From Halichondria panicea (lineage: Eukaryota > Porifera > Demospongiae > Suberitida > Halichondriidae), in the NCBI RefSeq assembly GCF_963675165.1, contig NC_087387.1:4428990-4492989 (forward strand): 64,000 nucleotides of DNA, written 5' to 3'. Positions 13,411 to 49,352 of this stretch are shown here, piece after piece; position 1 is the first letter of the stretch, and each line of letters opens with the position of its first letter. The notes beneath the pieces are model-generated. The model saw nothing but the letters and a program-made list of their open reading frames with translations. It was not told where the DNA came from and did not search any database. Position numbers and translations under genes: made by a program.

Positions 13411-17678
<4,268 letters not shown>

Positions 17679-22722: not shown

Positions 22723-25700
22723 ATGGAGCTTTGTGAGGAGTTTTTCGAAGCAAACTCTCCACCAGCTGATATTCAATCCATCACTGATGGAGTTACGGAA
22801 TTCGTGAGAGAGCATCATATTAATGGACGGCGCATTGCAATGATAGCTGTAAGAGTAATACATATATTGGTTGTTTTACTGTCAGTGTGAGACGGTACAA
22901 TCATTTTCATTTTCAAGTACAATTGTGCATGCCATTATGTACAAGATTGTATGAGTTGAGCACTAATATACTATTGACTAATTGCTTACAGTCTGGGGGT
23001 ACCACTGTTCCTGTGGAGAGAAATACTGTTCGTTTTCTGGACAACTTTAGCTCTGGACAAAGAGGAGCTGCGTCTGCCGAGTATCCTTGAAACACTATAA
23101 ACTATAGCTTTGGGAAAATAGGTGCATTATCCACTTATTTTCCCACACACTAATCACTGGGAAAAGGATTATTTAACTCAAGTGCAGATATTTTCTCGCT
23201 CAAGGATATGCAGTGATATTTTTGCACAGAAGTTCTTCTTTGAAGCCATTCCAAAGACACTGTGCATCAGACAATCCTCTTGACTGGCTCTCTTACGGTG
23301 GAAGAAAACTGCAAGGTGAGCTATATAGTGACAGTAACCAGCTCAATAAAGTATCTGTTTGAACTGTGCACGATTGCATGTATTGTTTTCTGTATGTTTT
23401 GTAGTGGATACTGCTACATCTGAGAATCTTGAGGGGAAGTTGGCGTCCGTGTTACCACAATACATTGAGGTACGTAGCATGCTTACATTGTATGCTGTTC
23501 AACCGTACATCCGTTCTTCAAATGTAGTTCCCAAGTTAGTGTTCCATGTTATAGGTTAAGAAGAACAACTCGCTCCATCTTGTTCCTTTCACATCTGTGT
23601 TTGAGTATTTCTTTTATCTGAGGCAAATTTCGAATGCTTTAAAGCCGATCGAGAAACAAGCTCTTTTCTATCTGGCAGCTGCTGTTTCTGACTTTTACAT
23701 AAAGCCGTCAGACATGGTGAGTGATGACATCATTATGCTATAACAGAGCTGATTGTTATCAGAGCTGTTTAATCAGCAGTTAAATTAGTATTATAACCAC
23801 TGATTATTTTGAGTGCTTATCAGGGTGTCATATACAGTATTTTGAGGTACGAAAAGTATGTAAAATTGCCAGCTATGGACCCCAACTAGTACCTGAATGC
23901 AAATTTTAGGGGGATATCCCCCTTTCCCCCCTGTATGACACCCTGCTTATAATGTACGAATTTAATTTGTATCGTGCAATTTTATAAGTTATTATCACAT
24001 GCCATTGTACACAGGTCTAATTAGCAATGAAAGTATGTACTCACGTTTAACACTACAAAAACCGTTTTATTTATTTCTATTGTGTGTTAATAATTCCCAG
24101 TTCCACGCTTTCAATGGACACATTTCCAAACTTTGAGGGAGGAGCTATCCCGCCAATAACCAATATCGTGTCGTTATGTAGTGTAGCTGCAAAACACATT
24201 GCGCGAGGATTGTTTAGTGGGTCAATTTCGTGCCAGGTGTTATTTTGCTTGTCATACACATGTACATTGGTAGTAGGAATGTTTTTCGTATCTCGGCCAC
24301 CGATAGCTAATAGATGGTTGTGATAGTTGACGCATGTAGCACCAAGCACTGGAATATCTTCAATGGGTGACCACAATGTAGAATGCCTTTTGGAAGAGAA
24401 CTTTAGAAAAGCGTTCGTTCGACACGACATCAGTAGATCAACTACAGAGCAAGAATAAACAATTTTAGATTCGTTGAGTGATTTATCCAAACCTCCAACT
24501 AGATAAATGTTGGAGTCTACTAGCTGGCCTGAGCATGCGTACAGAGGCTGTGGAATGTCGACTGCCGTAGCCCATTGTTTCTCATCAGTATTTAGCACTT
24601 CAACGGATCGAATAGCTTGCATACCAGACTGGGTTACTGTCAATCCTCCGATTACTATCAGCACAGAAGCATTGGAGATAGCAGTGCAACTAGATCGCTC
24701 AATGCCCATGCTTGGATATTTTTCTGTCCAATATTTCCCGTCGTTAGATTGTGTTAGTGTACAGTTTACTGCTCCTCGTACCACCCACTGTAGTTATGAA
24801 ACCGTCGATAACAGCTAATGTAGTGTTGTCCGTTAAGCATTCGACCGACTTCAACCACAAACTTGCCGTTGAATTGTAACAGTAGATCTTTCTTGTGCGA
24901 TGCGGACGTATATAGACAGTGCTACCGTTAATAACAGCGTTTGTGTCTCTACTCATGACCGTGGGTGCATTTCTCCCTCTTCTCCATGTGAGGCTAACGG
25001 GGTGCATTGCTGAAGGAAGTCGCAGCTCAGGCTTTGATGATGGTTTCTCTCTCTCGTGTTTCAAAGTGTCGGTAGTAGTAAGAGTTGATTTAGTCGATGT
25101 GTGTGTATCTAGAGGTACAGTTTTCCTAAGCCAAACTTTTTGTTTGGGGTGTGATCTTATTGGGGGAGTAGTTGAAGGAGGTTTCAATTCTTGTTTCGTA
25201 GCAGTTACAGGTGGTGTATTTGATCTGTGCACTTCTGTCGATAGAAGAGGGGCACTTTTTCTTATTCCAACTTTCTGTTGGATAGCTGATGTTTTTGAAT
25301 TCCTTTGGGAGGAAGTGCCGGAGGTAAAATAGTATCAACCGTTGTTGATTCAGTGTCAGCTCTTTTGTGGTATTCTCCGAGGTACTCATTCTGTTCCTCG
25401 CTTGAGGTGACTTGTTTTTCTTTCGCTATAATGATTCCTTTAGCTGTTTGAAGTTCTTGCTGTAAAACGTTTAATTGTGTCGCTTGGATTTTAATTACTT
25501 GCTTCAGTTTCTCGTTTTCGAGATTTATATCAGTGGATTCAGTCTGCTTTACATGTATGTGCTCTGTCGTGATAGCTGTTTCTTGTTGGGGTCTAATTTG
25601 AGTTTTCAAAGTGAGAAACCTTTTACAAAGCTCGCTAGCTGTTGGTCTGTCGTATGCTTTATCCTTGAGACACCTGAGTGCAATTGGTAGTAGAGGGTGG

Positions 25701-28700
25701 GATGATTCAATGCTGTTGATATCTACAATCCTTCGCTCCACTTCAGAAACACGAACGTCAATCGATCCTTGAGGAATCTGTGGATGGTCGATGTGAAGAG
25801 TCTTGAATCTATCCCCTGGAGCCGGAAATTTCTTAGTTAGAATTTGAATTATATTAACTCCAAATGAAAAAAGGTCTCCTTTGTCTGTGAAGACTGCATT
25901 GTCCAGGGCTTCTGGCGGCATGTATGCGTCTGTTCCCGGGCAAATGGTATTCGAGATCTGTGAGTTGTTGTGTGAAAGAAATTTAGCCATTCCAAAGTCG
26001 CTCAGTTTTGCTTGGTATCGACCAATTAGAAGGATGTTGTTGCTCAAAAGATCTCGGTGTACAATTTCATTTGAGTGAAGAAAAGACAAAGCACATGTGA
26101 CATCAGAGCAAAGTTTTAACTGGATAGAATATGATACCGTAACTTCAGATTCGTTTTCTAAGAAATGAGTCAGACTCTCGTCCATTAGCTCTAGTAACAA
26201 AACAGGAAGACCAGTGTCTTGATCTTGAAACATGCCCAGATATTGAACAATGTAAGGATGCCGAATTTCTTTCATGAAGCTACATTCTGCTTCAAATCTT
26301 TTTATAGGAAGCCTATGTACCTTTTCTGCACTGACTGAAGGTTCATCATGACCAGTTGGGACTAGTGTAGGGTGTATAATTTTGGCAGCACAAACGAGAT
26401 CATCACAATTAGCTCTGAACACTGAGCCATAGGATCCCACCCCTAGAGGGTGCTTTTTCTGCAGGGTAATACTCTTGAATTTCAAATCCCCGCTTTGTTC
26501 TTTGTGTGCCATTATCACTGTGTTCTATGTGTCTATCTTTGCTTAAAATAAACTGCGTTTGGGGGAGTAAATCTCTATGGGATATTATGAGTAGTAGTTA
26601 ATCATATTCACGATTCAATATGTAAATTCATTTATTCTACACCTGTTGTTTTTCATGGCATCCTCATACCTGGTCTCACGAATCAGCCGCACCTCTCAGG
26701 GAGGAACGTCTTTACGTGTATAAAGTCATAGCACAATGGAATGTATTATGTTACTATATAACTAAAAAATGTAACCATATCCGCTATCTCTGCTCAGCCC
26801 ACATCACTGCTTGCTGCTCAACCGCATGTAAGGTTCATTATTTGCTGCCTCCTATTCAAGTCACCTGATATGTATTTGTGAAGAATCTCATTGGTCACGT
26901 TAGAGTTCTATACTGTGGCCCATGAGTTCATGTAAAGAGTGCTCAGACGGTCTTCCCAAACGAAGGGCGGCAGATTCATGAGACTACCTCATACCTTGTA
27001 TGATTTCAGTTTAGTCCATGGATTATGCCCCGATCTTTACGTTAAGGCCGAAGAAGGATCTAAGTATATTGACATCAGAGTCAATTATAACATACCGGGA
27101 TTAAACGGCTGGGACTTTATCTCCTAGCAACGTCTGTATAAAGAGGGCATTTAAACGAGATGGGCGATTATTTAGAAACGGGCGTTTATTGTTATGTGTC
27201 TACTCCAAACTCTTGCGCAGCAGCAGTTATTGTGCTCACTTCAATTGCATGCATGCATATGGCTACTGTCTCTGCATAGGAGTGGTGTTTCTTCCTCTGT
27301 GTCAGTATCTCTGCCATAAATAGTATCTATTATTCTATATCAGTGCTGCCATGCTTGCAACTGGTTCCACGTGCTACTTCAGCTCCACCCACAGTGCCAC
27401 ATCCTATATGGTGTTATTTTATAGTATAAGTATATTTCACGCATGTCTCTAAGCTTTACTCTTTGTATTGCGTTCTTGTCTATCGATTTACCTGTGTGTC
27501 TATATAAAAAATTATGTATCAACTGGAATTAACTTTCTTGTTTTCATTGTGATATCAATCAATCTGTGTTTGTGAGAGTAACTCTATATATATAGGATGC
27601 GTTTCCTTGATAGTTGATCATAATTATATTATTCACAATTTTGCTATATTCATCTGTTATGCTAAAATAGTCCCGTGTGAATAATGATACTTTTACCCAA
27701 ATTAGCCAACTGCATGAAGTTTAAGATAATAGATGTGCAAATAGGTTTGTGAGATAGTTATACTAACACTCTATCCAGTACATGCTGTAGTGTATATATA
27801 TATATAGAATTGCTATTTGAATAAATGTTTTCATTGGATTTGTGATGATCTCCTTGTCCATTTGGATTCTGGGTACCATCCTACTGACTTGTAGAGCACA
27901 GGAGCTCTACGTCACTCCAACTCTAACTGCCTGTCCCTCTGGTGTGGCTAACTGTCACACTCTGGACTACTATGCTATTAATGGCAGCTCACTTTGGTTT
28001 GGAAAAGAGAATGTCTCTCTTATCTTCCTGGAGGGAAATCACACCTCAAATAAAAGATTTCAAGTATTGGGTTCCCATTTATTAACTGTCAAAAGCAGTG
28101 GTGATACAGACAGTGTGTTCGTTTTCTATGTCGATTTCTGGGCCTTTGCACTTGATCGTCTTGTCATAGAGAATTTGAATTTTGTTAACTGCGACTTGCA
28201 CTTGCATTGCTACGGTAGTATGGTAGGTATGAAAGAAACAAATCTCAGAAATTCTTATATTCACATTCAGAGCCAAAATGATGGTGTTCAACTGGTTGAA
28301 CTAAAAGAGCTGACCACAGATTATATTAGTAGGCCATTTGAAATTGACCTCTATAATCACACGGTATTGACTATTTCAAACTGTATCTTTCAACAGCCAA
28401 TTAGTGTGAGGACATTAGTAAATAATGAAAGAATCTTTATAAAAGCAAGCGTCATAGATAGTACATTTAGATCGATCAATGTGTATTCTGCTCTACAATT
28501 TTCACGTTACACAAATTTAACAGTAGCCGAAGAGTTTGAAGGCTCACTTACACTTGAAAATGTATCCTTCATTGACAATACCGCCACTGGCCTGGAAATA
28601 CAACAACCAATGGATGTAATCATTAATGGTTCCAAGTTCATCAACAATTCTGGTTTGCTTGGAGGTGCAATAAACGTGTCAGATTCAAGATTGTTCTTTG

Positions 28701-31700
28701 TTGGGGATAACCTATTCCTTAACAATTCTGGTAGCAATGGCGGAGCTATTCACTTATCTAATTCAATAATTTGGTTAGAAGAAGACTCCAATATTACCTT
28801 TCAAGAAAATAGGGCCTCTGAAATCGGAGGTGCTATTTCTAATGAAGCTCAAAACAGTTGTTTTTACAGCCTAACATTTGATGTCGATAAAGAGAGCACT
28901 TCTATTCCCGTGTCCATTAAGTTTAGAAAAAATACTGCTTTAGCTGGTAGGGACATTTATGGTGCTGGCTTACAGAACGATTGTAAAGTTACTCCGAATG
29001 GAACTGTTTATAGCTGTGATATTCAAAATTCTGTTTTCAAATTCATAAACCGAACGTTATCATCTGTTTCTACAAGTGCTAAAAGAGTGTGTCTATGCGA
29101 GAATGGTGTGCCTCAATGTGCAAATATCGACTACATCTTTTATAACATATCCGCAGCTCCCGGAGAAAAGTTTAACCTCAGTGTGGTACTTGTGGGAGAG
29201 GATTTTGGAAGTAATCCAGGAGGTGTATATGCTTCCAGTATCAAACAAAGTACTACTGATTCTTGTTTCACTTTTGGTTCAAGACGAAGCCTCCAACTTT
29301 CTGAAGCCAAATATTCTGACAATTGCTCATTACTGGAATACTCCATAGAACCAAAACACAAAAGTACCCGGAGTGTGAGTTTTATTTTATCAAGAGACAG
29401 AGTTGAGGCTTCTAAACATCAGGAAGCACTAACTACTCTAGACACCGTTCGAACTGAGTTAGAAAGTAGTATCTTACTATACAATGATTCCGGGTGTATA
29501 GACAACAATCTCCTCAATGCAGCTGTGGTCATCAATGTGATTGTTCTTCCTTGCCCTCGTGGGTTCATATTGTCTGAGAAAAATATCTGCATATGTGATC
29601 CACAACTGAATAGCTCCGTTGAGTATTGTAATGTAAAAAATAAAACTGGGTTACTTTACCGCTATAGAAATGTCTGGATAGGCCGGCCTAACATCAATAA
29701 AAATGACTCAGATGTAATTCTTGTTCACAGTTTTTGCCCATTCGACTACTGTAATTCGAACCCAGTTGGTGTTGACCTGAACAATCCAGACAGCCAGTGT
29801 GCTCTCAGTCACAGTGGTGTTCTCTGTGGAGGTTGTCTACCAGAGGTCTCAGTCTGGCTATCGGCAGCTCTAGATGTAAGAATTGTACTGACCAAAATGA
29901 TCACATCGCTTTTCTAGGAGCATTTATTGTAGCTGGTGTTGTCCTTGTGCTCTGCATAAAGGTGTTTGATTTAACTGTTGCCCACGGAACAATCAATGGA
30001 CTCATCTTCTACGCCAATGTTGTCTGGATAAATCAAGGTGTCTTTTTTTCCAACATTAGTGATCACTATGATGTGCAATGTTTTGGCATAATGAAAGGAT
30101 TTATTGCCTGGCTTAATCTCGACTTTGGTATTGAAACTTGCTTCTTCAGTGGGCTTGATGCTTATTGGAAAACTTGGTTGCAGTTTGCTTTCCCCTTATA
30201 TCTCTGGTTCTTGGCTGGTCTAATTGTTCTTTTGTGTCACTATTCTATCAGAGCCACCATGCTGTTTGGAAATAACGCTGTGGGTGTTCTCTGTACTGTG
30301 ATCCTACTCTCGTATATGAAGCTTTTACGGACCATTGTATCAGCACTTAGTCCTGCAGTTCTTCATCAGTTTAATCCTTACGGTACAAAATGGGTGTGGT
30401 TGATGGACGGTAATGTAGAATATCTCGGATTTAGGCATTCTTTTGTATTTGGAGTAGCCTTGCTGATGTTGCTGTTTTTATGGCTACCTTATACGTTTGC
30501 ACTTCTATTCGTGCGCTGCCTGCACAGATTTCCGTGTGCTACACGCTTTATGCCAAACTTGAAACCATTCATCGATTTTTACACTGGTCCACTGAAAGTC
30601 AAGCATCATTACTGGGTGGGTTTGACTCTACTAGGTCGGGTTGTTCTAGCTATCACTGCTATTGTTTCCCAAACTGTTAGCCCCTCGTTAGGTATCGGTG
30701 TTCTCTGTATTATGTCGGCTATCTTCTGTGCATTTGTAGTCAATGTGTATAAAAATACACTGATTGCGTTTCTGGAGCTACTATTTCTGTTCAACGTAGT
30801 TTCCCTCGGTATTGCCTTTCTATCATCTGAGGATATTGAATCAAAATCAAGAGCAATAAGCTCTTGTGTTTCAAGCTTTGTTTGTCTCCTCCTGTTTATT
30901 GCGATCGTCTGTTATCATGTTTATCTGACATTGAGGAAGTGTTTCCGTCTGAATCAGAGAAATGGATACCATGATATTAGCGCAGCTGATTTGGGCTATG
31001 ATGATAGGGATGACCAAATTAAAGTAGCCGCGACAAGCACTATTGTTGGCTTACGAGAGGAACTATTGTCGAGTACTGAATTATAGCTAGTTTATGGGTG
31101 AAGATAATGTTTTATGATGTGTGTTTGAGAATATATTTTATGCTATGTACATGTAGACTATTTTTTTATTTTATGTGTGTGTGCGATGCATATATATATA
31201 CACATGATTGCTTGTTTCTTCACGTATTTTTATATATCTAGTGCATGTGTGTGTGTACAATTACAAAGTATTTGTTTTTGTCGTTATTATGTATCGTGAA
31301 TGCATGGTTTTCAAGATAAAGTATGTGCATGTGCTGTTAGCTATATGCATGACTGTGTTATTAATTATGACATATCACCTATATAGAGTTTGTGTTTGTA
31401 CTCTAGCTGGAGTCATCGTTTTGTTCTAAAAGATTCCCCTCCAAAATTAGTCAATGCAATGAGAGAAGAGAAGAGTCAAGACAATGAGAAAAGAGTCAAG
31501 ACAATGAGAGAAGAGTCCAGATATACAGTTCATTGTAGTTATTGTTCTTGACCTATACTTGCATGACTGATACAATTATATTAAATATCTGGTTTTTGTT
31601 GTAGTACATTGTACTACCTATTTAGTCATGCATGTGGTATTATGCGGCACAGATATTTTGGTCTCATAGTTCTACTTCCATTATGCTGACCTATCAAGCA

Positions 31701-34700
31701 CATGAGTATACTACGTTATATACCCAATCCTCAATCCTGTGCTGATAACCTTGATAACCTTGATAGTCAGTCACAACCTGTCAGTGCATGGCAGTCACTT
31801 ATTACTATCCCACAACACATTGAAAACACCGGTTTTCGCCCTGCCATGCAGTGGGTGTAGAGATCTTTATTTTGTGCAAGTTGAGTCTTTGGCCATCACT
31901 TTGTAAAAATCCCTGCTTGCATTGCATTGGAGTTGTATCATCAGCTTGGTTACAAATTATCAATAATGTATTTGGTTTTTCATATAATGACACTTTAAAT
32001 TCTCAACACCTAGTTCTTTTTGCGCCATGTTATATAGTTCTCAAGGCTCAACACTTGACATAATTTTATGTATCCAGCTTATTCAAAGTATCACGTCATA
32101 ATTGTTATTGTAAAAGTGCAGGCATTGTCTTCTCTGACGATGGTCATTCCCCTTTTAACAATAATATTATTATAGGCAGTGTGCAATTGCTTGTTGTCTA
32201 TTGTGTCTGCTGCGAATGGTTTATAGAACTGTGTAGTTTTATACAGTATAATTATATAAAATTGCTAGCTGGTATAGCTGCGATAAACTTTAATTGTCAC
32301 AACCTGTCAGTGGCAGTCACTTATTACTAACATGCATATAACTTTTCAGGGATTCATATAGGATTTTTAGCTGGGAGGGGGAAACGTTTAATTCAGAGGC
32401 GCCCGGGAGTCATTACTCCAATTTTTTAACGAAATGATCATCTGAGGTGAAAATTTGGCCTTTTTGTGTGTTTCAAACCATGAAGTATACTTCTAGGGGG
32501 GGGTTGGCTGGGGGTGGAAAATCCCAAGGCTGAAACCCTGCCCTTTGAAACACCAGTTCTCATCCTGGGTGGAAATAATTATAATTACAGGTTGCTTTCT
32601 TGCACAATTTAACACTTGTCTCATTTCTACACTCGCCCTGGTAATCATCATCTTCGCTGGTTATTAGCAAATTGAGTCTGTAGCCATCATATCACTTAGT
32701 CCCCAAATTAGTGAGTATATTTATGCCTCGAGGCGTAGCCGCACGAGGGATACGGTAAAGCTGACTGTGTGTGTGTGTGTCTGTGTGTCTGTTCCAGCTG
32801 TAACTGCTCAACGGTTGCAATGCGACGAAAACTAACAGCTTCTATAGGCTTCTAGCCACGTTCTCTTGGATTTTGATTCGTGGATTAGCAAACTAAAGCT
32901 TCTTTCTCGAGTTATGGCTAGTTTGACTCACATTGAAGGCTGTTGCAGTCTCTTTAGAATCTTTCATAGCATCATCTGTCCGCACATACTTTCTATTCAA
33001 CATATGAGTTAGCCTTGCACTAAAGCGCTAGCTTTTTGTTAGCTACAAGACTCAGAAAATATCTGTTAAAACAGCTAGCTAGCAGTAGCCATTGATCTGT
33101 TTGGACACACCCTTTATTATTCCTGTGGATGTAATGCGCATGCGCGCTCATTCCCCACGTGTGAGAAACCAAGATCCAGATCCAGATCCTCCTGGCAGAA
33201 TCATCTTTGTCTTGAGGGCCTGGTAAGCCACAAAACACTACCATATAACAATATAGATAACAATATGCATGTACACAGGTCTGATATTATATACACTGAA
33301 CTACAGATCCTGGAAGAATCAATTTTCTTCTTTCTTGAGGTCCTGGTAAGCCACATAATACAATAAATAACAACAATAGATGCATGTAAATAAGTCTTTT
33401 CTTCTCAGTGACTTTATATAGGTAAGCTAACTTTAATATAAAATTCATTATAGAAACTAATATAACACTCTTAATACTTTTGAGCGAAAGCAAAAACATG
33501 GCGAGAGGCATTAGCACAGCGCCAGCTTGAACACTAGTCTTTGCTGGCACTTATCAAAATACATTTCACTGTTCTAAAAACTTTGTTTTCTTTAATGCGC
33601 CATGTGAGTTTTCAAGGCTTAACACTTTATATGTGTCCAGCTTATTCAAAGTATCATCACGTCATTGTTATTGTAAAAGTGAAGTGTGCAGACATTTTCC
33701 TCTGACTATGCATGGTTATTCCCTTAAAGAACAATACTACAATAGCCAGTGTTCACTTTGCTTGTTGTTTTTCAGCTCTGTAATGTTTTATTTTGTCGTG
33801 TCTGCTGCAATTGGTTAGAACAGTGTATATTATAGTTTTGTTGTGTCTATACATGCAGTAGCCTCGATCCCAGGCCGAGTTTTCGCTTTTATAACGGTTA
33901 GGTGAACAACTGGGCCTGGTACTAGTTGTCTGCGCATGCGTCAGTCGTTCGTCAGATTCTGACAAATGGATATTCTCGTTCACTTTCGTGACATTTATAT
34001 TCGTGTACTATCGTGTACTAGAAGTCAGTTCCCGTTTTATCATTATTGGAATCGATTGGAATGGCTCTTAGCTGAAGCTTCTCTCTTCTCTGAAGCTTAT
34101 TCTGAAGACTGAACAACAAGGGAAGAGGTATAAAGCTTTGTCAAGCTTGTTAAGGTCAGATATTTTTGTGTGGGCCCTATGGCCGGCTATGCTATCAAGT
34201 CTTGTTCATGTTTGGCAAGAATGTAGGTAGACTATAGTTTCATCATTAATATGGTGGATCAAGTGAAGAGTTTGAGCTAAAGAACTTGGTGCTGCCATCA
34301 TCAGCTCGTCGACAATGACACTATAACCGAGAAATTTAATATGTATAGATCTACACGTATTTAAAATGTCTACTTCTCTGTACAGGAGCAATGGCTAATA
34401 TCCAGCTATCCCAAGCTCCTCTTGGCTATACTAACGGACGAGACTGGACAGTTTGAGGTAAGGGTTTAACCGTCTTTGGTTTCTTTTAATATTGTCCTAT
34501 ACTCACAGACACAGGACTGGAGTATGACCTGCTCATTCGAGCGTTGCTGGGTAGCTCAGAGACATCAAGAGAATCTACGTTTTCTCAAGCAATGAGTTAC
34601 GAGTTGGGGCCTAGAATCAGAGAAGTCCAGCAGCCTGCTAAATCTTTTTGAAACGTAATTTGAAGGCATTCAATCATCTTGAAGTTGCCCTGGGTCACTG

Positions 34701-37700
34701 TAATTGTGCTGCAGCACAACTGGCAACTCCCCAGGCCTTTGTGAAGCAGCTCCCTATGTGCATCTTTTGTGTACTCACTCTGTGCATTTTCTGTGTACAA
34801 ATTTCGATTATTGATTTATTAAATATTTTTGCCGACCACAAATATACAATGAAAATTTGACGCATGCGCAGACAACTAGTACCAGGCCCAGGTGTTCGCC
34901 TAACCGTTATAAAAGCGAAAACTCGGCCTGGGATCGAGGCTATACATACAGTGTAAAATATTGCTAGCTGCATGATTTTAGGTTTACAATAATAAATAAA
35001 GCTGCTCTGAAGCAGTGTTTTGATTGCACACCCAGTGATGGTCTCCTCATCAGTTTGGATGCTGTGTACCATCCTACTGACTTGTAGAGCCCTGGAACTC
35101 TATGTCACTCCCTCCTCCTCCTTCTCGGACTGTCACCTCTGATAAAACTTGTCTCACTCTGGAGGAGTATACTATACTAATGGCAGCTCATATTGGTATG
35201 AAAAAGAGAATGTCTCCTTACTTCCTGGAGGGAAATCACACTATACACATTAAATTATTACCAATATCTTGACTGTGACAAGTAGTGGTGATAGAGACGA
35301 AGTGTTCATTCTCCAAAATTCCGTTTCACATTTCGAATCTAAACCACATTGTCTGTTTCTACCAGTCCTAGGTAGGGGTTGGTAGATTATTCGAGATATT
35401 GCCTATTATGCTATTCTTTTATGCACTCCAAGTTAACAGCCTATTATTTTTTTCAAATCGCCTATCAGTATTCCCACATTTTTCCCTCTAAAGCACAACA
35501 TAGACCCCATGTTGTCGCATAAGTAACATCAAACTATGCCACACGACTCTATCTATTAGCACTATAATGTAGAATGCCAAGGAAATAATCATTCACCAGT
35601 ACTTCTATCAGGCCTACAAAATGTTTATACTACTATTAATACTAGTTGTACATGTTCATGACGTTGTAACAGATTGGAAGTAGGCTTTCATCTGATATTT
35701 CTTGTTCCCACGCTTTTAAAAGCAGTAGAGCTCATCTGCCTTGTGGAAGCAATCACAAATCTGAAGAAGCGCTTTGTAATCCAGGTTGTAATCGTTTGGA
35801 AACCCTGTGCAGAATGTCCTGGAGATGGCTGTACTTGGAGAAAATGCTCCCCATGAAACTTACTCATTTACTTAGTCAGTCAGACAAAGAGCGGTGAAAT
35901 GTCAAAATAGTGCAGTTTTAAAATGACAATATTAAACGTTCATGGATTATAAAATGAGACATACAAACAGAGAAAAGGCTAAACAAATTCATTCATTAAA
36001 ATGTTCATGGATTATGAAATGAGAGATGCAAAGAGAGAAAAGGCTAAATAAACTATCTGTCTAGCCAGTTCCTTGATTTAGCCTTACCCTGCAGAGATAG
36101 AACAGTTTAAACACAAGTTAAAATAATGTGCTAACACAGGCAAACCCACTGCCAATGATACCTACATAAAACCTACTGGTTTTACTAATGGAGCCATGCA
36201 CAAGTTCTAAAAATTGCACATTGCTGGAATACTCCATAGAACCAATACACAGAAGCATTATAGAAGTATTATAATTATCTAAAGACAGTGATGCATCTTC
36301 AGAAGCAATTGCTATAATAGTCCAAACCAAACTATGCTCTCGCCGAATTTCTGGAGCTCGGTACACACTTGAGAAGTAAATGATTGTCAGTTTTTGCTTA
36401 TTTCAATCGACGTGAAAAGGGTGCATGTACATACATAGTCATATTGTATGATATCTCTCCAGCCCATAATTATGTATTCATCGTGTTAGTCCTTATAATT
36501 ATGACGTATGTTTGTGGGAGTCTGGTTAGCTTGGATATCTGTGCGTTTCCTTGCATGGTAGCTCACAATTTCATTGTGTGTGTATTCATTGTCATGCACC
36601 TCTGGACTTAAATAGTCCCTTTTAATGATGATAATTCTGTCCCAAATAAGCCTTATGTGAGAATAGGGTTTTAGTTGGCAGCTATATATAGTTGCACTGT
36701 GTAGTTTTGTTGGGTCTATACAGTAAGTGCTGTAGTGTAGAGTTGGTTAAAGCTAACTGATTGACTGTGTACTAAGAATACCTATACACTGAAGGAGTGT
36801 TTTGATTGTATTATTCGATCGATTTATGATGGTCTCCTTATCCATTTGGATTCTGGGTACCATCCTACTGACTTGTAGGGCGCAGGAATACTATGTCACT
36901 ACCAACTCATCTGCTTGCCCCCCTGATGCGATTAATTGTCACACTCTGGACTACTATGCTATTAATGGAAGCACACGTTGGTTAGGAAAAGAGAATGTCT
37001 CTCTTATCTTCCTGGAGGGAAATCACACTACACTGAATGGCTATTTTTGGATATCGGGTGTCAATTTCTTAACTATCACAAGCAGTGGTGATAGAGACAG
37101 TGTGTATATTTTCGATACGTTCCCTTTTCTGGCATTGGCGTATAAAAGTCTCGTAATTAAGAATTTGAATTTTGATAATTGCTACTTGTATAGCTATTTA
37201 CAACACACCAATAAACCTTCTACTAATGTCACCGATGTGATGCGTATAAGAGATTTAAATCTCAGAAATTCTCTGGTATATATTTACACTGCTGAATGGG
37301 GTAACATAAGGGATATACTGGTTGAACTAAAAGAGCTGACAACAGATAATAGTTTCCAGCTATTTTATTTTGACTTCTATGCTTTTCACACGGTGCTGAC
37401 TATTTCAAACTGTGTCTTCCAGCAACCTGTTAGTGTAATCATATTTCGTAATAGCATTCAAGTAAATGTGACAGTCACAGATAGTATATTTAGAAGGATC
37501 AACCGCCAATCTGCTCTACAATTTTCACTTTCTAACACTGTAACAGGGGCAGTAACCAAAGACTTTGAATGCTCGCTTATACTCGAGAATGTATCTTTCA
37601 TTGAAAATAGTGTCACTAGCTTGGAAATACAACAGCCAATGGATGTAATAATTAATGGATCTCAGTTCATCAACAATTCTGGTTTGCTAGGAGGTGCGAT

Positions 37701-40700
37701 AAACGTGTCAGATTCGAGATTATTCTTTGTTGGGGATAACCTATTCCTTAACAACTTTGGTAGCAATGGCGGAGCTATTCATTTATTAAACTCAGTGATT
37801 TTGCTTCAAACTAATTCCAGTATTATCTTCCAAGAAAATAGGGCCTCTGAAATCGGGGGTGCTATTTCTATCGAACCTGGTACAAATCAAGGCAATTGTT
37901 TTTACAGCCTAACCTTTGATGTCGACAAGGAGAGCACTTCTATTCCTGTGTCTATTGTGTTTGACAACAATACTGCTTTAACTGGTAGTGACATTTATGG
38001 TGCTGGCTTACAGAACGATTGTAAAGTTACTCCGAATGGTAACATTAACAGCTGTGATATCCAAAACTCCGTTTTCACATTCCTAACCCGAACCGCATCT
38101 TCCGTTTCTACCAGTCCTAAGAGAGTGTGTCTTTGCAAGAATGGTGTGCCTCAATGTGCAAACATCGATTACATCTTTTACAACATGTCCGCAGCTCCCG
38201 GAGAAAAGTTCAACCTCAACGTGGTACTTGTGGGAGAGGATTTTGGAAGCATAGCAGGAAGTGTGTATGCTTCCAGTATCAAACAGAGTAGATATAATTC
38301 TAAATCTGACTATATTTTTGGTTCCAGTCAAAGCCCTGGACTGTCTGGAGCCACAAATTCTAAAAATTGCACATTACTGGAATACTCCATAGAATTAGAA
38401 CCAATAAACAGAAATATTGGGAGTGTTAGTTTTATTTTATCTAAAGACAGTGTTGCAGCTTCAAAAAACCAAGACGCAATTGCTACTCCGAACCGTACTC
38501 TAGAATTAGAAAGTAGTATCTTGCAGCATCACAATTCCGGATGCATATTTGACAATCTCCTTGATGTATCTGTAGTCATCAATGTGACCATTCTTCCTTG
38601 CCCTCGTGGGTTCTACTTGACTATGTCTGAAACTGAAAAAAAATTTTATGTCTGTAAATGTGATCCGCAACTGATTCAGAAGTACTACGTTGAATACTGT
38701 AATGTAGAAAATAAAACTGGTTTCCTTCACCCCTCTAAGAATGTCTGGATAGGGCCTAACAATGAAAATGACTATGCCGATTCAATCCTCGTTCACAGCT
38801 TCTGCCCATTTGACTACTGCAATTCAAACTCAGTTGGTGTTGACCTGACCAATCCGGACAGCCAGTGTGCTCTCAGTCACAGTGGTGTTCTCTGTGGAGG
38901 CTGTCCACCAGGTCTCAGTCTGGCTATTGGAAGCTCTAGATGTAAGGATTGTACCGACCAAAATGGTGACATCGCTTTTCTAGGTGCATTTATTGTAGCT
39001 GGTGTTGTCCTTGTGTTTTTCATAAAGGTGTTTGATTTGACTGTTGCCCATGGAACAATCAATGGACTTATCTTCTACGCCAATGTTGTCTGGATAAATC
39101 AAGGTGTCTTTTTTTCCAACGTTGGTGATCACGATGAAAACATGTTTTTTGGCCTAATGAAAGGATTCATTGCGTGGCTAAATCTCGACTTTGGTATTGA
39201 AACTTGCTTCTTTGATGGGCTGGATGGTTATTGGAAAACTTGGTTGCAGTTTGCTTTCCCCTTATATCTCTGGTTCTTGGCTGGTCTAATTGTTCTTTTG
39301 TGTCACTATTCAATCAGAGCCACCAAGCTGTTTGGAAATAACGCTGCAGGTGTTCTCTGTACTGTGATCCTACTCTCGTATATGAAGCTTTTACGGACTA
39401 TTGTATCAGCACTTAGTCCTGCAGTTCTTCATCAGTTTAATCCTCCCGATAAAAAATGGGTGTGGTTGATGGACGGCAATGTAGATTATCTTGAACCTAA
39501 GCATTCTATTCTATTCGGAGTAGCCTTGCTGATGTTGCTATTCTTGTGGCTACCGTATACGTTTGCACTTTTGTTTGTGCGCTGCCTGTACAGATTCCCC
39601 TGTGCTACACGCTTTATGCCAAACTTGAAACCATTCATTGATTTTTACACTGGTCCACTGAAAGTCAAGCATCATTACTGGGTGGGCTTGACTCTACTAG
39701 GTCGGGTTGTCCTAGCTATCACTGCTATTGTTTTCCAAACTGTTAGCCCCTCCCTAAGTATCAGTGTTCTCTGTATTATGTCGTCTATCTTCTGTGCATT
39801 TGTAGTCAATGTGTATAAAAATACACTGGTTGCGTTTCTGGAGCTACTATTTCTGTTCAACATAATTTCCCTCGGTATTGCATTTCTATCATTTGTGGAG
39901 GATGAATCAAGAGTAAGAAGTTCTTGCATTTCAAGTTTTGTTTGTCTCCTCTTGTTTATTGCGATCGTCTGTTATCATGTTTATCTGACATTGAGGAAGT
40001 GTTTTCGTCCAAATCAAAGAAATGGATATCGTGATATTGACGCTGCTGATTTGGGCTATGATGATAGGGACGACCAAATTAAAGTAGCCGCGACAAGCAC
40101 TATTGTTGGGTTACGAGAGGAACTGTTGTCGAGTACTGAATTATAGCTAGTTTATGGGTGCAGATAATGTTTTATGACGTGTGTTTGAAAATTTGTATGC
40201 TATATATGTACATAATTATAGACTATTTTTTTATTTTATGTGTGTGTGTACGATGCTATACACAATGTCATGATTGCTTAATTGTTTCTTCACGTATATT
40301 TTTATATAATTATATCTAGTGTGCATGTATGTACAATTACAAAGTATACAATGAATTTTGTTTTTGTCTTTATTATGTATCGTGAATGGTCTTCAAGATA
40401 AAGTGTGTGCATGTGCTGTTATAGCTATAATATGCGTGCATGTGTATAACATATCCCCTATAGAGTTGTGTTTATACTCTGGAGTCATTGTTTTATTCTA
40501 AAAGATTCCCCTCCAAAATTAGTCATGAGAGAAGAGTCCAGATACAACCAGTTCATTGTAGTTATTGTTCTTGACCTACTTGCATGATTGATCAGGGTGT
40601 CATACAGGATTTTGAAGTAGAAGGGGGAAATAAGGCATGCATGCTTTTGAAAATTAACCAGAACATTTTGCTAAAAAAAGAGGTCAACTGCTATTTCAAT

Positions 40701-43216
40701 ACCCTGTTAGTACATGCTGTATGACCCAGCTACATATACATGTATATGGACACTCAACTGCCAAGGTTACTAATTGCACGAGGCGTAGCCGAGTGCTATT
40801 AACCTTGCCAGTGCTTGTTATGAGTGCAACACATTCAAAACAGGAGATCATAAATATTTATTGTTTTCCTTAGCAAGGCGATTATTCTCAAAACCCACTT
40901 CTCCTTTGCATGGCTATCTTCTTGCCATGTGAGTTCTCCAACACTCATACATGCAGGTGTGCAGCTTAAGTATGATGTCATTGCTATTGTAGACATTGTC
41001 CTCTGACTATGGACATTCCCGACACAATGCTCTATAATAATTATTATAGCCAGGCAGTGTGCACATTGTTTTTCAGCTCTGTAATAATAATTATAGTTGC
41101 AATGCATGTGTTCTTTTGTTGTGTCTGCTAAAAATAATGGTTATAAGAATTGTTGCCAGTAATGTGGTATACAGTGTATAGGAGCACATGTGCTACTGAG
41201 TGTATAAAGTGGTTATTAATAACGTTATTTGTGGGGATCAATCAAAAGCAATAATTAAGTTCTTGCGTTTTAATCTCCTCTTGTTTATTGTGATCCTTGC
41301 TACCATGTATATCTGACATTGAGGAAAATTATAAATCAGTGAGAAATGGATACCAGGATAAATATTGGCGCTGCTGCATGATTTTGACTATTAGTGAGAG
41401 GAACGATCCAATTAGAGTAGCCACGACAAGGAACTGTTGTCAAGTACTGGGTTGTAGCTGGTGTTTCTTGCAGAGTATAGAGCCAGTTCTTGAGACCCTC
41501 GAGACTGAAGGAGAGTGAGACCCTCAGCTGCAGTACGCACACGGCCAGTAGAAGATTACGATCATCAAGACATCATAATCATGTGGAAGAAAGGGTTCAC
41601 ATCAGATATGCCAAACTGAGACAGAACAGCATTTTTTACAGACGATTATAGCATATAAGAGTTTGTGTGTGAAATTAACTATTTTCTGACTTTATACTGT
41701 ATATTTTTTAGTGTTAAGTTATTTATGACTATCATAGTGATTGATATCAACGAGAATCCATACCGTAATCCATACCAGCTATGCCAGGGAAGGCACAACA
41801 TCATGTATACTGGCCGGAGGTGTTCCCGAAAGGGGTGCAAAGCAGAAAAATTCAACAGGAAATGCACGAACTATATGCACTTGAACAACAAAATACTAAA
41901 AGCTACCATGTGTACATGCCCAGCTGTATAACCCCCCCCCCTTTGTATATAACTGTGACAGGTGTGTATCTTAGCTCCTATATACGAGCTACAAGACCTC
42001 CTGGGCAGACAAAGCCATTGTGAACTTTAAAATCTGCATGCAGATTCTCTCCTTTTAATCACTATAATTATATATAGGGGTATACATTAAACGCAACAAT
42101 TTATCGCTCAGTAGTTGTAATAGCATTAACAAATTTACAAATTAACAAATCAATGACATGTGGTATTAAAGTTGTCCGCATCGCCCACGTTCATCAGCTC
42201 CTCTCTGCTCACTATCACACGCAGGCACAGCTCCACTAGACTAGCCAGACCCGTACAGGGAAATAGGTGTATAGTGATACATTAACAGTTATCATTGTGT
42301 TGGAAAAACTCCATTAGAATACTGAGTATATTCATGACATTTGTACATCATAATAAATCATTGTTGCACAGGGTATACTTGGGGCTGCTGAGTAACATGT
42401 ATAATACTCATCAGTAGAATCAGAGGCTTTGTGTTTGATTGTTATACGGTCCTTTTGAAGTAAATAGTCTATACGAGAAATAATTCAATAATAATCATAC
42501 ACATGACAATGATCAATTACACCCACTTATTGCAGCCACAGCACAAAGTTCAATCATCAGGGGAACTTCAGTTAAAGTTTAGCCATACACCAAAGATGCT
42601 CCTACTCCTGACCAGTAAATGGGTACCTAAAGCCTTTGTGGTCACTTTTAAAGTCAGTGTTACTTATTAGTACTTAATACTCTAGACAGGCCTTCTCAAT
42701 AGTACTATTTATACCTGCTCTCTCGACTGAATGCCTGTTAAGAATACAATAACATTTTCATTAAGTCAAGGCATGGATTTACACACAAAGATTTACAATA
42801 ATACGCTTATGACAATAATGATTGTACAGTTGGAAACTGAAGAGCCTCTGCTAATACCTCATGCAAAGGCTGCACTGGACAAGTATCATCATCAGGTATA
42901 TACCATAATTATGCTCTGGCTGTTCCCATGTATGCATGCATGCAGTATAGCTATATGCTGTATTTTATATAGTGGTCTATATAAAATTATACACTTTTCA
43001 ATACTGAATGAATGTAATATTGAAATTCAGCTGGTTGTGGCCAATTTGCTGGAGACAAGAAGAACGTCTGTGACCCTCGTGTGCGTTGAAAATCAAGAGA
43101 CGGTAACTATGAAACTCTCAACTGCTACCAAGGTATCAGGTATCTGTGCAGTTAGGGAACTGGAGGACTCAATTGTTTCTGAGATTGTGCAAAAGCATTC
43201 CTTCTTTCTAGCATAG
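22723..43216 (+). CDS. PPCS: Phosphopantothenate-cysteine ligase (phosphopantothenoylcysteine synthetase)
   Basis: Eight exons join in frame: 22723-22848, 22992-23080, 23188-23315, 23405-23469, 23555-23716, 42536-42652, 42830-42895 and 43031-43216. They total 312 residues; human PPCS has 311. The enzyme joins cysteine to 4'-phosphopantothenate, the second step of coenzyme A synthesis, in the cytosol. Diagnostic segments are [38 protein letters not shown], then [19 protein letters not shown] and the helix that begins [12 protein letters not shown]. Exon 5 ends SDM and exon 6 opens PQHK, just as SEM-PEHK runs on in the human protein, so the joint across the 18.8-kb fifth intron is well supported. 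That intron holds three protein genes, two of them on the same strand. A precursor RNA must be transcribed through all of them if the gene is functional. Confidence 0.9.
23821..23945. repeat. 125-bp inverted-end miniature element
   Basis: The ends cagggtgtcata...acag and ctgtatgacaccctg are inverted, with cttat directly repeated on each flank. One end of the same family recurs at about 40594 (cagggtgtcatacagg). Confidence 0.7.
24077..26512 (-). pseudogene. Protein kinase-coiled coil-kelch fusion gene with two frame breaks
   Basis: The first open segment (26512-25262, 416 residues) is a TKL-like kinase. Its glycine loop GVGSYG is at 24-29, the ATP-binding Lys at 44, HRDLLSNN at 152-159 and DFG at 172-174, followed by PPEAL and a charged, coiled-coil-like stretch ([20 protein letters not shown]). 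A second frame (to 24744) continues with a Pro/Ser/Thr-rich linker and a first kelch-like unit ending [13 protein letters not shown] third frame (about 24784-24077) carries further kelch units (VLIVIGG, IYLVGG, LLAIGG, ILVIGG). The frame changes near 25265-25320 and near 24750-24790 have no plausible GT-AG intron. All catalytic residues are kept. It is therefore either a recent pseudogene or a real gene with sequence errors. It is intronless and lies antisense within PPCS intron 5. Confidence 0.75.
26513..27844. other. Gene-free spacer between kinase-kelch and receptor A
   Basis: No supported gene. A 62-codon open frame at 26939-27127 has no recognisable motif. The kinase and receptor A are transcribed away from each other, so both promoters should be here. 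A short (TA)n run precedes receptor A at about 27795-27806. Confidence 0.5.
27845..31086 (+). pseudogene. Beta-helix multi-pass receptor A, one 2-nt frame break
   Basis: A signal peptide ([13 protein letters not shown]) is followed by the family signature [12 protein letters not shown] and a long ectodomain rich in NxS/T sites. Repeated Gly-Gly-Ala turns ([25 protein letters not shown]) fit a right-handed parallel beta-helix like Chlamydia Pmp repeats. A cysteine cluster (CPRGF, CICDP, CPFDYC, VLCGGC) comes next, then about eight or nine membrane helices and the tail [11 protein letters not shown]. The frame is lost at 29841-29845, where this copy has ccagaggtctc against ccaggtctc in receptor B; it resumes in the next frame to the stop at 31084-31086. 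The 2-nt AG duplication is the only break seen. Function is unknown. The ATG at 27845 was chosen because it directly precedes the signal peptide. Confidence 0.8.
31087..33858. other. Spacer downstream of receptor A
   Basis: No gene. The first ~350 bp match the region after receptor B (40147-40510), showing that the duplication included 3' flank. It also contains a short GAGAAGAGTCAAGACAAT-type tandem (31450-31520), a partial dispersed repeat (32725-33050) and a roughly 115-bp diverged duplication around gcctggtaagccaca (33185-33270 and 33305-33395). Confidence 0.6.
32725..33050 (+). repeat. Dispersed repeat, partial copy 3
   Basis: The start (atgcctcgaggcgtagc), GT tract, ttctcttggattttgattcg and tctcgagttatggctag segments match the family, but the gaggcatcagcacc end is missing. 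Confidence 0.6.
33859..34942. mobile_element. Mutator-like element, copy 2 (1084 bp)
   Basis: This is the same element as at 8582-9666, in the same orientation, with matching long inverted ends. Its flanks are tacatgcag (33850-33858) and tacatacag (34943-34951), a 9-bp target duplication with one change. It sits in PPCS intron 5, just before a decayed receptor fragment. Confidence 0.87.
35037..36310 (+). pseudogene. Decayed receptor fragment (5' end and scattered ectodomain)
   Basis: At 35037 the signal-peptide region is recognisable ([17 protein letters not shown]), but a stop follows within about 30 codons and the CHTL signature is frame-shifted. Further pieces match receptor B: ttctaccagtcctag at about 35355, and a block at 36195-36310 similar to 38345-38500 (attgcacattgctggaatac). 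The membrane part is missing. Confidence 0.8.
36826..40146 (+). CDS. Beta-helix multi-pass receptor B (1106 aa)
   Basis: This is the intact close relative of receptor A. It has a signal peptide ([13 protein letters not shown]), [12 protein letters not shown], and a roughly 650-residue ectodomain with many N-glycosylation sites and Gly-Gly-Ala turns ([27 protein letters not shown]). Then come cysteine motifs CPRGFYL, CKCDP, CPFDYC and [11 protein letters not shown]. About eight or nine membrane helices follow, such as [36 protein letters not shown] and [19 protein letters not shown]. The cytosolic tail is short and acidic ([12 protein letters not shown]) and ends [11 protein letters not shown]. 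The arrangement implies a plasma-membrane receptor or adhesion protein with a beta-helix outer domain; ligand and signalling are unknown. It is intronless, on the same strand as its host gene PPCS. The ATG at 36826 is followed at once by a second at 36829; either could be used. Confidence 0.85.
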   Translation: MMVSLSIWILGTILLTCRAQEYYVTTNSSACPPDAINCHTLDYYAINGSTRWLGKENVSLIFLEGNHTTLNGYFWISGVNFLTITSSGDRDSVYIFDTFPFLALAYKSLVIKNLNFDNCYLYSYLQHTNKPSTNVTDVMRIRDLNLRNSLVYIYTAEWGNIRDILVELKELTTDNSFQLFYFDFYAFHTVLTISNCVFQQPVSVIIFRNSIQVNVTVTDSIFRRINRQSALQFSLSNTVTGAVTKDFECSLILENVSFIENSVTSLEIQQPMDVIINGSQFINNSGLLGGAINVSDSRLFFVGDNLFLNNFGSNGGAIHLLNSVILLQTNSSIIFQENRASEIGGAISIEPGTNQGNCFYSLTFDVDKESTSIPVSIVFDNNTALTGSDIYGAGLQNDCKVTPNGNINSCDIQNSVFTFLTRTASSVSTSPKRVCLCKNGVPQCANIDYIFYNMSAAPGEKFNLNVVLVGEDFGSIAGSVYASSIKQSRYNSKSDYIFGSSQSPGLSGATNSKNCTLLEYSIELEPINRNIGSVSFILSKDSVAASKNQDAIATPNRTLELESSILQHHNSGCIFDNLLDVSVVINVTILPCPRGFYLTMSETEKKFYVCKCDPQLIQKYYVEYCNVENKTGFLHPSKNVWIGPNNENDYADSILVHSFCPFDYCNSNSVGVDLTNPDSQCALSHSGVLCGGCPPGLSLAIGSSRCKDCTDQNGDIAFLGAFIVAGVVLVFFIKVFDLTVAHGTINGLIFYANVVWINQGVFFSNVGDHDENMFFGLMKGFIAWLNLDFGIETCFFDGLDGYWKTWLQFAFPLYLWFLAGLIVLLCHYSIRATKLFGNNAAGVLCTVILLSYMKLLRTIVSALSPAVLHQFNPPDKKWVWLMDGNVDYLEPKHSILFGVALLMLLFLWLPYTFALLFVRCLYRFPCATRFMPNLKPFIDFYTGPLKVKHHYWVGLTLLGRVVLAITAIVFQTVSPSLSISVLCIMSSIFCAFVVNVYKNTLVAFLELLFLFNIISLGIAFLSFVEDESRVRSSCISSFVCLLLFIAIVCYHVYLTLRKCFRPNQRNGYRDIDAADLGYDDRDDQIKVAATSTIVGLREELLSSTEL
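40147..42535. other. Spacer between receptor B and PPCS exon 6
   Basis: It holds 3' flank homologous to that of receptor A (40147-40510), one end of a miniature element (about 40594), and a decayed receptor C-terminus at 41236-41460. A 12-base C run lies near 41932. No other gene is seen. Confidence 0.55.
41236..41460 (+). pseudogene. Receptor C-terminal remnant
   Basis: Nucleotide matches to the last ~220 bp of receptors A and B are visible: ttgcgttttaatctcctctt, tatctgacattgaggaa, gagaaatggataccag and tagccacgacaag. All are shifted in frame relative to each other. The rest of the gene is gone. Confidence 0.75.
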
Positions 43217-45475
43217 TCCTTGTTATTGGCAATTTATTTGCGAAGTGCACACTTTGTACCGAATAAGGATGTTGATTGTTAATGTTGATTGTTGAACAGT
43301 TTATCGCTGCTCACAAATACACTATTTCACTTGCAACTTTGGCATTTAATTTCCAATAAACAAGTTTGGCAGTGCAGCATATAAAATAAATGAAAGCACC
43401 GTGGGTGCTGATGCCTCGATGGAGGTGTCAAAGCTACATAACATAAAGCTTCTAAAGCTACTAGCTATTAGCTTTTATACACATGATGAACATTTTTGCA
43501 TTGCAACCAAAATCCAAAATCACAGAAAGTGGGTAAGGATCGACAATGATTGTGTTAAAAAGAATTGATGCCACAAGTCCAAGTAGAGTAGTATGGACAA
43601 GTTTTTCTACGCACTCTTCTGAAAAGTAAGCAAAACTAGGCATAATTATAACTCGAAAACCAAGCATTATTTTGCAAATCCACAAATTAAATCCAAGAAA
43701 ACATGACTAGAAGCGTATAGAACTCTTACTTGCACTTCATTGATCCTTGTGAGCAGCTGTAGCAGTCTACACAGACAGATACACAAACACACTACCGTAT
43801 ACCTCGCTTGCGCATGCGCACCGAGGCATAACTAAGGGAATGCTGGAAGCATTGTGTGCATGGGGCGAGCCTAGCCTTAGTGAAGAGAAGTTGTAGTGAT
43901 TACTAATCACTTGTTCGACTTGCTGTTTCCTATAACTGCTCTTCCTCTTCAATTCGAACCTTTTGACGACAGGTAAGCTTCAGACAAGCTCATTAGCTCC
44001 TACTTGTTGGTTATTCAATGGTAGCAGGGAGATTTGCTGACGTCAATAGACTAGGTACAGTTTAAGTGTGCAGTGACTGTGTGTGTGTGTGGGGGGGGGT
44101 GTGAGCTCCTAATATACATTGTACGTACTTCTGGTAGTCCTTCCAAAATGTTCTCATTACTTGCTATAATAATTATTAACTGTCAAACTTCCCTTAGCCT
44201 TGCCAGCAGATGGTGTCTTAGGTATGACGTAGGGAACGCCATTGCCTCGTTGCCTTAGTTGTTGAGCTGTATCAGTTTGTCCAGTAGAAATATTAATGTC
44301 TTGCTCATGATTGTTAATACAAGCAATCGTTAGAAAATGCAGCAATCGTCACGCTAAAAAGCTTGAACTGACCGTAGGATAGGCTTACAGACGGATATAA
44401 AAAGACAGACAGACAAATATCCGGTTGCTGAGCTTCTCTGCAGTACTCGCTACTATGGGAACGAGCTTCGATCAGGGCTCGCCCCAATTATGGAGTGTTT
44501 AGGTACCCATGCGACAATTATTGTTGGGTGATCATTGACCAGGATTTCTTGGGTGGTCTGTTCATATGTCGGATTATTCGTGTACTAATTTAATATCTTA
44601 CTTCTGCAGTTCTAAACTGAACCTGAACCGTCAAGCACCAATGTTATGACACTCACACCACACCCCTCCGTCTGCGTGCATGGCATATCCTGATCGAGCT
44701 ATTACATGCCAGTGCTGCATGTACACGCTTGTATGTTACGTAAATTCTTACTAGCTATACAAAGTCATCAAATATCCCTAACCCTAACCCTTGCATGCTG
44801 AGTTCAGATTGTTCGATTTCTAAACAAGTTTCAGTAATTAGTAATGAGCATAATTATTTGGGAGCTCTATCTAATAGCTATACAAAATGTAAGAAATATG
44901 TCTCATAGGAGGTTTTCAAACGATAAATGCACTAGCTTACAAACAATCTCACACTTTTTTTGTTCTCATACGCATGCATGGGGGTATATAATATAGAGCA
45001 ACTCTTTTGGAAATTGTGAGTAGCTACGTATGACCCACATGCACACTATATATCAGTATAGGTTCTATGACCACTTCTTCTCAGAGTCAGATCTTCTGTC
45101 ACCATAATGTTATTTTCTGTAGATAGTAATACTCAAGAAAACGCTATATTTTTTAACATGTAGTCCGACACACACACACACTTAATACCTAAGATTTTAT
45201 TAGACATGCATGCTAATTATTGAGTGCTTAAATAAATTCAAAAATGTTTCACGCTGTCGTTACAATTACGGAAGTTATATTTATAATCTGTCTAACAAGG
45301 CTATAATATGCACAATTATGATGAGAGAAATCAAACTATATAGTGCTATAGACAGATATAGGGTCAAATGATTATGTATCATGCATGCACTTCCAACCAA
45401 ATACCGTATAATTATGTTCTAGTTTATCGGGGTAGTATTTTGATGTAAATGTATAGGTTTTTTCTTTAGCACTCT
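43217..45475. other. Spacer between PPCS and the minus-strand receptor pseudogene
   Basis: It contains a dispersed repeat copy (43389-43831, minus). Nothing else is supported; the short open frames here have no recognisable motif. Confidence 0.5.
43389..43831 (-). repeat. Dispersed repeat, copy 4
   Basis: The sequence runs from atgaaagcaccgtgggtgc to gcgcaccgaggcataac and matches the copies at 17837-18389 and 55067-55640. The microsatellite found in other copies is reduced to a few CA units. Confidence 0.7.
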
Positions 45476-48400: not shown

Positions 48401-49352
48401 ATGACACTTCCATTGTTCTTGATCCAAACTGAGCTAGTGTCATTAGCAGAGTGTGTGAAATTGCAGTTAGAGATAGCCATTGACACATTGCTTGTATGAT
48501 TGCATGGCAAATACACCAGCTCCAAATGAATCCTCCGTCATGCAACAATAGATTGCGACAATGAATTTTGAACTGTATGGACAGTGAAAATCAGCCTATT
48601 TGTGTTCACGAACGTGCAGTTGCTGACATCCACTGTCACTGGCCTATTGGTACTGTTTAGAGCAAGCTTGATCCATATGAAGGATTCTCAATACCTCTGT
48701 GTTGAAACTTCAATGGTAGGTAGACTATAAGAGTATCTGTTTCTGTAAACAAACCTACAGTTGATGATGTGTCAAAGAATCTTATTAGCTCGTCTCGGTC
48801 AAAAAGCTCTTTGAATCGTATCTCGTCCGTGTGCCCCCAAGAAACTAGCCATGTGCAATAAGTTAGCCTTGATTTGATCAGTGACACACTGCTTACAATA
48901 CTGTTATAGCAAAGCACTTCATGATTGATCATAATAATTATTTATTCTGAAAGTTGGTTACATTCAAAAAAGTGTACAGTATGGCCATACTTTTTAGTGT
49001 GAACAAAGTTCCGTTAGCTATTACTAGCTCCTAGCTTCATAATAACTGCAGTGGAGGGAGCATTAGTATCAAATGGTGAATCTGTTCCAGCCATAGTCAA
49101 ATTGTTTACATTAGCTATTTCAAGGACTGTATCAGAATAATTGTAGAATCCGTCGATGAACAACAACGAAACATTGTCTCTTCCATCGATGAGGGACAAG
49201 GCATTGCTGGCATAGTAGCTCAGAGTGTGACAAGGCTTATCAGAGGGACAGGCCGGATTGGGAGGTGGGGTCGGAGTAACATAGTACTTCTGTGCTTGAC
49301 CAGACAATGGAGTAGCTGTCAGTAGCAAGTACAATAATAGCCACGACATCTT
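45476..49352 (-). pseudogene. Decayed beta-helix multi-pass receptor gene
   Basis: Starting at 49352 the minus strand reads a signal peptide (MSWLLLYLLLTA) and the family signature PCHTLSYYASN, then loses frame repeatedly. Later segments are a beta-helix piece (SMAISNCNFTHSAND), a cysteine part (LLPCPLGFEF and, in another frame, [17 protein letters not shown]), membrane segments (WYVDGNVDY, AIFAAFLLAITIWLLM) and a tail ending SQFREELL at 45478. At least five frame changes are visible and no matching splice sites were found. It is more distant from receptors A and B than they are from each other, so it belongs to an older branch. Confidence 0.8.

Follow-up and report, generated by a model that had tools for sequence, protein, structure and literature searches.

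PPCS of the sponge Halichondria panicea as the probable host of nested genes in its 18.8-kb fifth intron

Drosophila possesses 865 host genes that together harbour 1,651 nested genes, 727 of which lie in the direction of the host (PMC3890989), and in the ctenophore Hormiphora californensis 2,357 nested genes have been counted in 1,654 hosts, many of them parallel to the host (PMC8527503). For sponges, a single table gives 2,432 nested genes in Aphrocallistes vastus, 3,358 in Amphimedon and 5,032 in Sycon, together with 83 in Oopsacas and none in Ephydatia, counts that hinge on annotation (PMC10282587). In Drosophila, an intact 5' splice site of the host keeps poly(A) signals within its introns silent, and deletion of that donor releases them (PMC3890989). 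At a mouse locus, the host is forced into intronic polyadenylation by transcription of the nested gene (PMC13309782), and intronic polyadenylation or exonization of hosts by nested transcription has been described in both mouse (PMC13309782) and human (PMC3192792).

The stretch of DNA analysed here (the window; 64,000 nt, C11:4428990-4492989) lies within a 131.5-Mb genome of 39 contigs and carries the eight exons of a PPCS gene, divided into two groups by one long intron:

22723-22848, 22992-23080, 23188-23315, 23405-23469 and 23555-23716, plus strand: PPCS exons 1-5, placed by GT/AG sites, phases and match to human PPCS
23717-42535, plus strand: PPCS intron 5, 18,819 nt, phase 0, GTGAGT...TTGCAG
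42536-42652, 42830-42895 and 43031-43216, plus strand: PPCS exons 6-8, placed by splice sites, phases, genome match and match to human PPCS

The first-pass annotation of this DNA had split PPCS into exons 1-5 and 6-8 around an intron of about 18.8 kb, and the same structure emerged when the eight exons were re-derived from the DNA. All seven introns run from GT to AG; introns 1-4, 6 and 7 measure 85-177 nt, as against 18,819 nt for intron 5. Joined, the exons give a coding sequence of 939 nt with a single terminal stop and a protein of 312 aa, with the phase held across the 23716/42536 junction. The joined protein contains a DFP domain (Pfam, E = 3.1e-19) and, in a phmmer search of PDB sequences, matched human PPCS (7edz, E = 1.4e-62) in one stretch over query residues 24-311, with the exon 5/6 joint SDM|PQHK aligned to the human SEMPEHK. 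This continuous match bears out the earlier statement that the phase is kept and that the passage from SDM to PQHK is the one expected from the human protein. With both this domain and a match along the protein to a characterised eukaryotic PPCS, the gene product is PPCS by sequence, and its exons form one coding sequence across intron 5. A six-frame search of the 131-Mb genome for the second full PPCS gene contemplated in the first-pass annotation returned only the window exons (8/8 matches; 5/5 candidates scored), a result that supports, short of proof, a single copy. Automatic annotation could split such a gene into two partial ones.

As a nearby baseline for length, the introns of a PECR-like gene appear to measure approximately 0.3-1.7 kb (from ORF positions, with exon ends placed by eye). 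This gene occupies window positions 13396-17678 (+) in about six exons and matches human PECR (1yxm, E = 1.3e-92). Elsewhere in the window, the minus strand at 2535-2732 carries an exon that presumably resembles a poly(rC)-binding KH-domain protein.

The long gap between exons 5 and 6 raises the question of whether PPCS might be split in function, with its two halves transcribed separately and united by trans-splicing, or made as two polypeptides. Reading on from exon 5 soon meets a stop, after VSDDIIML, and trans-spliced leaders have been reported in ctenophores and, in a glass sponge, at a low level (PMC8527503, PMC10282587). However, the exon 5 donor GTGAGT and the exon 6 acceptor TTGCAG are in phase, so that an ordinary pair of splice sites suffices, and the family nested in intron 5 also has members lying within introns of other genes here (see below); we regard a functionally split PPCS as extremely unlikely. 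It is instead highly probable, judging from the exons and their splice sites, that PPCS is one ordinary cis-spliced gene and that other genes came to reside in its fifth intron.

Within intron 5, the host strand carries copies of a family whose members the first-pass annotation had described as receptor genes:

27845-31086, plus strand: 'receptor' copy 1, with one 2-nt frameshift near 29842
36829-40146, plus strand (that of PPCS): 'receptor' copy 2, a single open frame of 1105 aa
35035-36304, plus strand: remnants of a third 'receptor' copy, with matches over 35035-35370 and 36199-36304
41227-41440, plus strand: 3'-end fragment of a further 'receptor' copy, by sequence match

The open frame of copy 2 lies wholly within one PPCS intron (23717-42535), so that same-strand nesting, as first proposed, holds. 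The accompanying count of three other protein genes in the intron stands for this single open frame, but of the other two one carries the 2-nt frameshift (copy 1) and one is a kinase-kelch gene with two frame changes. When copies 1 and 2 were aligned along their whole length, one of the 17 gaps (2 nt) was not a multiple of three, and copy 1 read in the register of copy 2 contains no premature stop. Their divergence (NG86) gives dS 0.33 and dN 0.14, a ratio of 0.41, with a ratio of 0.31 in the C-terminal part; these ratios therefore point to a frame break in copy 1 that is recent, allelic or an assembly error.

Although one family does contribute two long copies on the host strand, their receptor identity is unproven, as Pfam gives only a weak repeat match: Chlam_PMP repeats in copy 2 at E = 0.0042, below the curated cut-off, and in two relatives at E = 0.00017 (above the cut-off) and 0.0096 (below it). 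We therefore use 'receptor' as a label for the nested family and not as a proven identity. Copy 2 is likely to be a membrane protein; its C-terminal part has hydrophobic stretches with, by eye, a multi-membrane appearance. A structure predicted for copy 2 from five sequences was of low overall confidence (mean pLDDT 43.7, pTM 0.39), with only approximately residues 17-340, predicted mostly as strands, reaching moderate confidence, and with long helices predicted at low confidence in the C-terminal part.

Two further stretches of the window resemble this family. A relative in several frames occupies 45475-49430 (-), shortly after the end of PPCS and opposite to it in strand, and a 1385-codon open frame running from 59845 to the window end at 63999 (+) has weak, part-length similarity (31%) to it.

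The remaining coding copy in the intron lies antisense to PPCS:

24077-26512, minus strand: kinase-kelch copy, three overlapping ORFs in two frames, with kinase and kelch domains by Pfam

An AATAAA follows directly after its stop. Relatives are many in the genome (100 of 782 candidates scored), and each of the three examined forms a single ORF, of 715-729 aa; the window copy lacks one open frame that runs from kinase to kelch repeats. Aligned to one of the relatives (L007), its pieces cover residues 13-400, 438-509 and 519-710. The first frame change falls in a variable linker between approximately 25373 and 24977, where about 395 nt are available for 37 residues, enough to accommodate an intron or a longer linker. 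The second falls between 24762 and 24736 and cannot be an intron, since only about 25 nt are available for 9 residues. We read the antisense kinase-kelch copy as broken, with an intron possible at one of its two frame changes.

Mobile DNA makes up a further part of the intron, which contains other dispersed repeats besides the two given here:

33859-34942, no strand assigned: inverted-repeat element of 1,084 nt with 85-nt terminal inverted repeats, arms 98% identical
32718-33538, no strand assigned: dispersed repeat, with one other copy at 99% over 32766-33538 and another at 91% over the whole

The 1,084-nt element recurs at 98-99% identity in at least 39 other places, at one of which 40 nt are missing (40 of 4,408 candidates scored), and at 90-93% in two further places among the matches listed. 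Its inverted ends and its numerous near-identical copies scattered through the genome give it the make-up of a non-autonomous inverted-repeat DNA transposon; the element is young and records a recent transposon burst. Altogether, the named pieces account for 13,509 of the 18,819 nt of intron 5 when 35035-36304 is counted whole, and for about 12.7 kb when only its matched parts are included.

The relationship between the two long copies suggests how this array came about. Copies 1 and 2 share 69% amino acid identity in the N part and 89% in the C part, whereas the best full-length relative outside the window reaches 45% and the other matches listed are at or below 50% (42 of 583 candidates scored). 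The homologous region, which falls into two pieces, covers 27837-31571 in one copy and 36821-40592 in the other; in each it begins 8 nt upstream of the ATG and continues to 446-485 nt beyond the stop. Since neither long copy has a closer relative than the other among the matches listed, growth of the array in place is most likely, and the simplest reading of the sequences is that one ancestral copy duplicated inside intron 5. An intronless member of a large gene family would have come to lie in this intron and would then have been duplicated in tandem, leaving two copies of full length and two groups of fragments; the antisense kinase-kelch copy and the transposons would have been added to it, and all coding copies but one now appear to carry frame breaks or truncations. 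A retrocopy origin of the long copies was also considered and is not supported: no poly(A) tract was seen in the flanks examined, and their homology continues for the 446-485 nt past the stop.

The position of the transposon bears on whether the 18.8-kb block truly lies between PPCS exons 5 and 6, since a near-identical multicopy element in the middle of the block is the kind of repeat that is prone to misjoins during assembly. The copies that flank it are, however, each other's closest relatives among the matches listed and have a common 3' flank, and the two sides of the transposon therefore belong together. In addition, the window contains no N letters, the contigs examined span 5.7-8.6 Mb, with the window contig C11 extending beyond 5.6 Mb, and the same kind of nesting was found in three other hosts on other contigs. 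An assembly join thus appears very unlikely.

If PPCS is a cis-spliced host, its transcription would traverse all 18.8 kb before splicing, and the intact nested gene would use its own promoter and its own 3' end. The first-pass annotation had found it puzzling that PPCS could tolerate such a nest; a published answer exists in another animal, the poly(A) silencing of Drosophila (PMC3890989), although splicing of the host in the sponge is deduced. By analogy with the fly, intronic poly(A) signals on the PPCS strand may be ignored owing to the strong exon-5 donor upstream. Such signals are present: the host strand of intron 5 carries 26 AATAAA/ATTAAA hexamers, whereas 200 single-base shuffles averaged 23.0. 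Since they are no fewer than in shuffles, there is no sign of purging, and premature ends are possible. The next canonical poly(A) hexamer 3' of copy 2 is at 42086, about 1.9 kb past its stop, which counts against a clear 3' end of its own.

These undepleted signals, together with the transcriptional interference exerted by nested genes in mouse and human (PMC13309782, PMC3192792), could also mean that PPCS is weakened or regulated by its nest, with much of its RNA ending in intron 5 to yield a truncated protein. Against this, none of the eight exons is damaged and all match human PPCS, which is what continued production of the full enzyme would predict, and intronic signals are mostly ignored in Drosophila (PMC3890989); we consider a weakened PPCS unlikely and continue to favour the intact, cis-spliced host.

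We extended the analysis to 20 other places in the genome occupied by the 'receptor' family, drawn from 43 listed matches outside the window, several of which fall in shared clusters. Around each place, predicted exons or ORFs were read over approximately 5 kb on either side, and two promising places were given more sequence, so that the effort was unequal. Tool-supported hosts were recognised at three of the 20 places; a presumed HEATR6 host would make four:

C16:3805877 (exon end) to 3810937 (next exon start), same strand as the nested member: Rab escort protein host, GT/AG intron of 5,059 nt
DUF3694 (E = 1.7e-10) before and RabGAP-TBC (E = 6.7e-50) after the nested member, antisense: RABGAP1-like host, by Pfam
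C9:2106886 (end of N-terminal exons) to 2111415 (next exon start), antisense: mitochondrial aspartate aminotransferase host, intron of 4,528 nt
Intron of approximately 10.6 kb, same strand: presumed HEATR6 host, by resemblance to the human sequence

The member nested in the Rab escort protein intron is an open frame of 1052 aa, and a PDB match of the host to REP-1 residues 540-614 crosses the exon junction. In the RABGAP1-like host, a PID match before the nested member fell below the cut-off. The aspartate aminotransferase gave a Pfam match over the cut-off at 2112391-2112612, which crosses one TAG near its start that we take for an intron. The fourth host we take to be HEATR6 from its resemblance to the human sequence, and its peptides matched no Pfam family. 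No host was recognised in 16 of the 20 places, from which the absence of hosts there does not follow.

At the aspartate aminotransferase locus (L049-L054, C9:2102300-2129300), further family members lie downstream, with relics of the later exons of the host beside them (74-83% DNA identity at L053 and 87-91% at L050); tandem duplication of member and host exons together is the best reading of these sequences. At another of the family's places (L019, C2:654800-659800), two divergent silicatein-like genes lie near the family member. Silicatein is a hallmark of demosponges. The two genes have CGASYAF at the active site (in the second by eye only), and for one of them the best PDB match was silicatein alpha (6zq3, E = 3.2e-49), with the next chain at 9.6e-32, which points to a demosponge as the most likely source of the DNA.

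A broader proposal would be that one expanding, intronless family of membrane proteins habitually settles and multiplies in introns of essential genes on either strand (PPCS, Rab escort protein, RABGAP1-like, aspartate aminotransferase and probably HEATR6), the introns acting as nurseries in which expression is coupled to that of housekeeping genes. We hold this to be doubtful. An enrichment of the family in introns was not shown: taking p = 3358/43615 (7.7% nested, Amphimedon, PMC10282587), P(>=3/20) = 0.20 and P(>=4/20) = 0.06.

On this evidence, the PPCS nest is best described as a known arrangement that recurs elsewhere in the same genome, and what looks new within the literature searched is limited to which genes act as hosts and which family is nested in them. 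The papers listed by a search on nested genes in sponge introns did not contain the term PPCS, which is no proof of absence. The study of Aphrocallistes vastus describes sponge genomes as rich in single-exon genes, with nested genes counted in the thousands in some of them, and in the parts covered names neither a PPCS host nor a recurrent nested family (PMC10282587). As in Hormiphora californensis, the PPCS locus appears to hold protein genes inside one host intron and parallel to the host, but the ctenophore nests are backed by Iso-Seq, whereas the PPCS nest is known from sequence alone and most of its copies are broken. Drosophila supplies a mechanism by which same-strand nests are tolerated, tested in the fly and applied to the sponge by analogy (PMC3890989). 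The locus offers a clear case, from an early-branching animal, of a metabolic gene for which the search returned no second copy and whose intron contains a nested gene on the same strand, and PPCS and the three further tool-supported hosts form a natural set in which the poly(A)-silencing rule of the fly could be tested in sponges.
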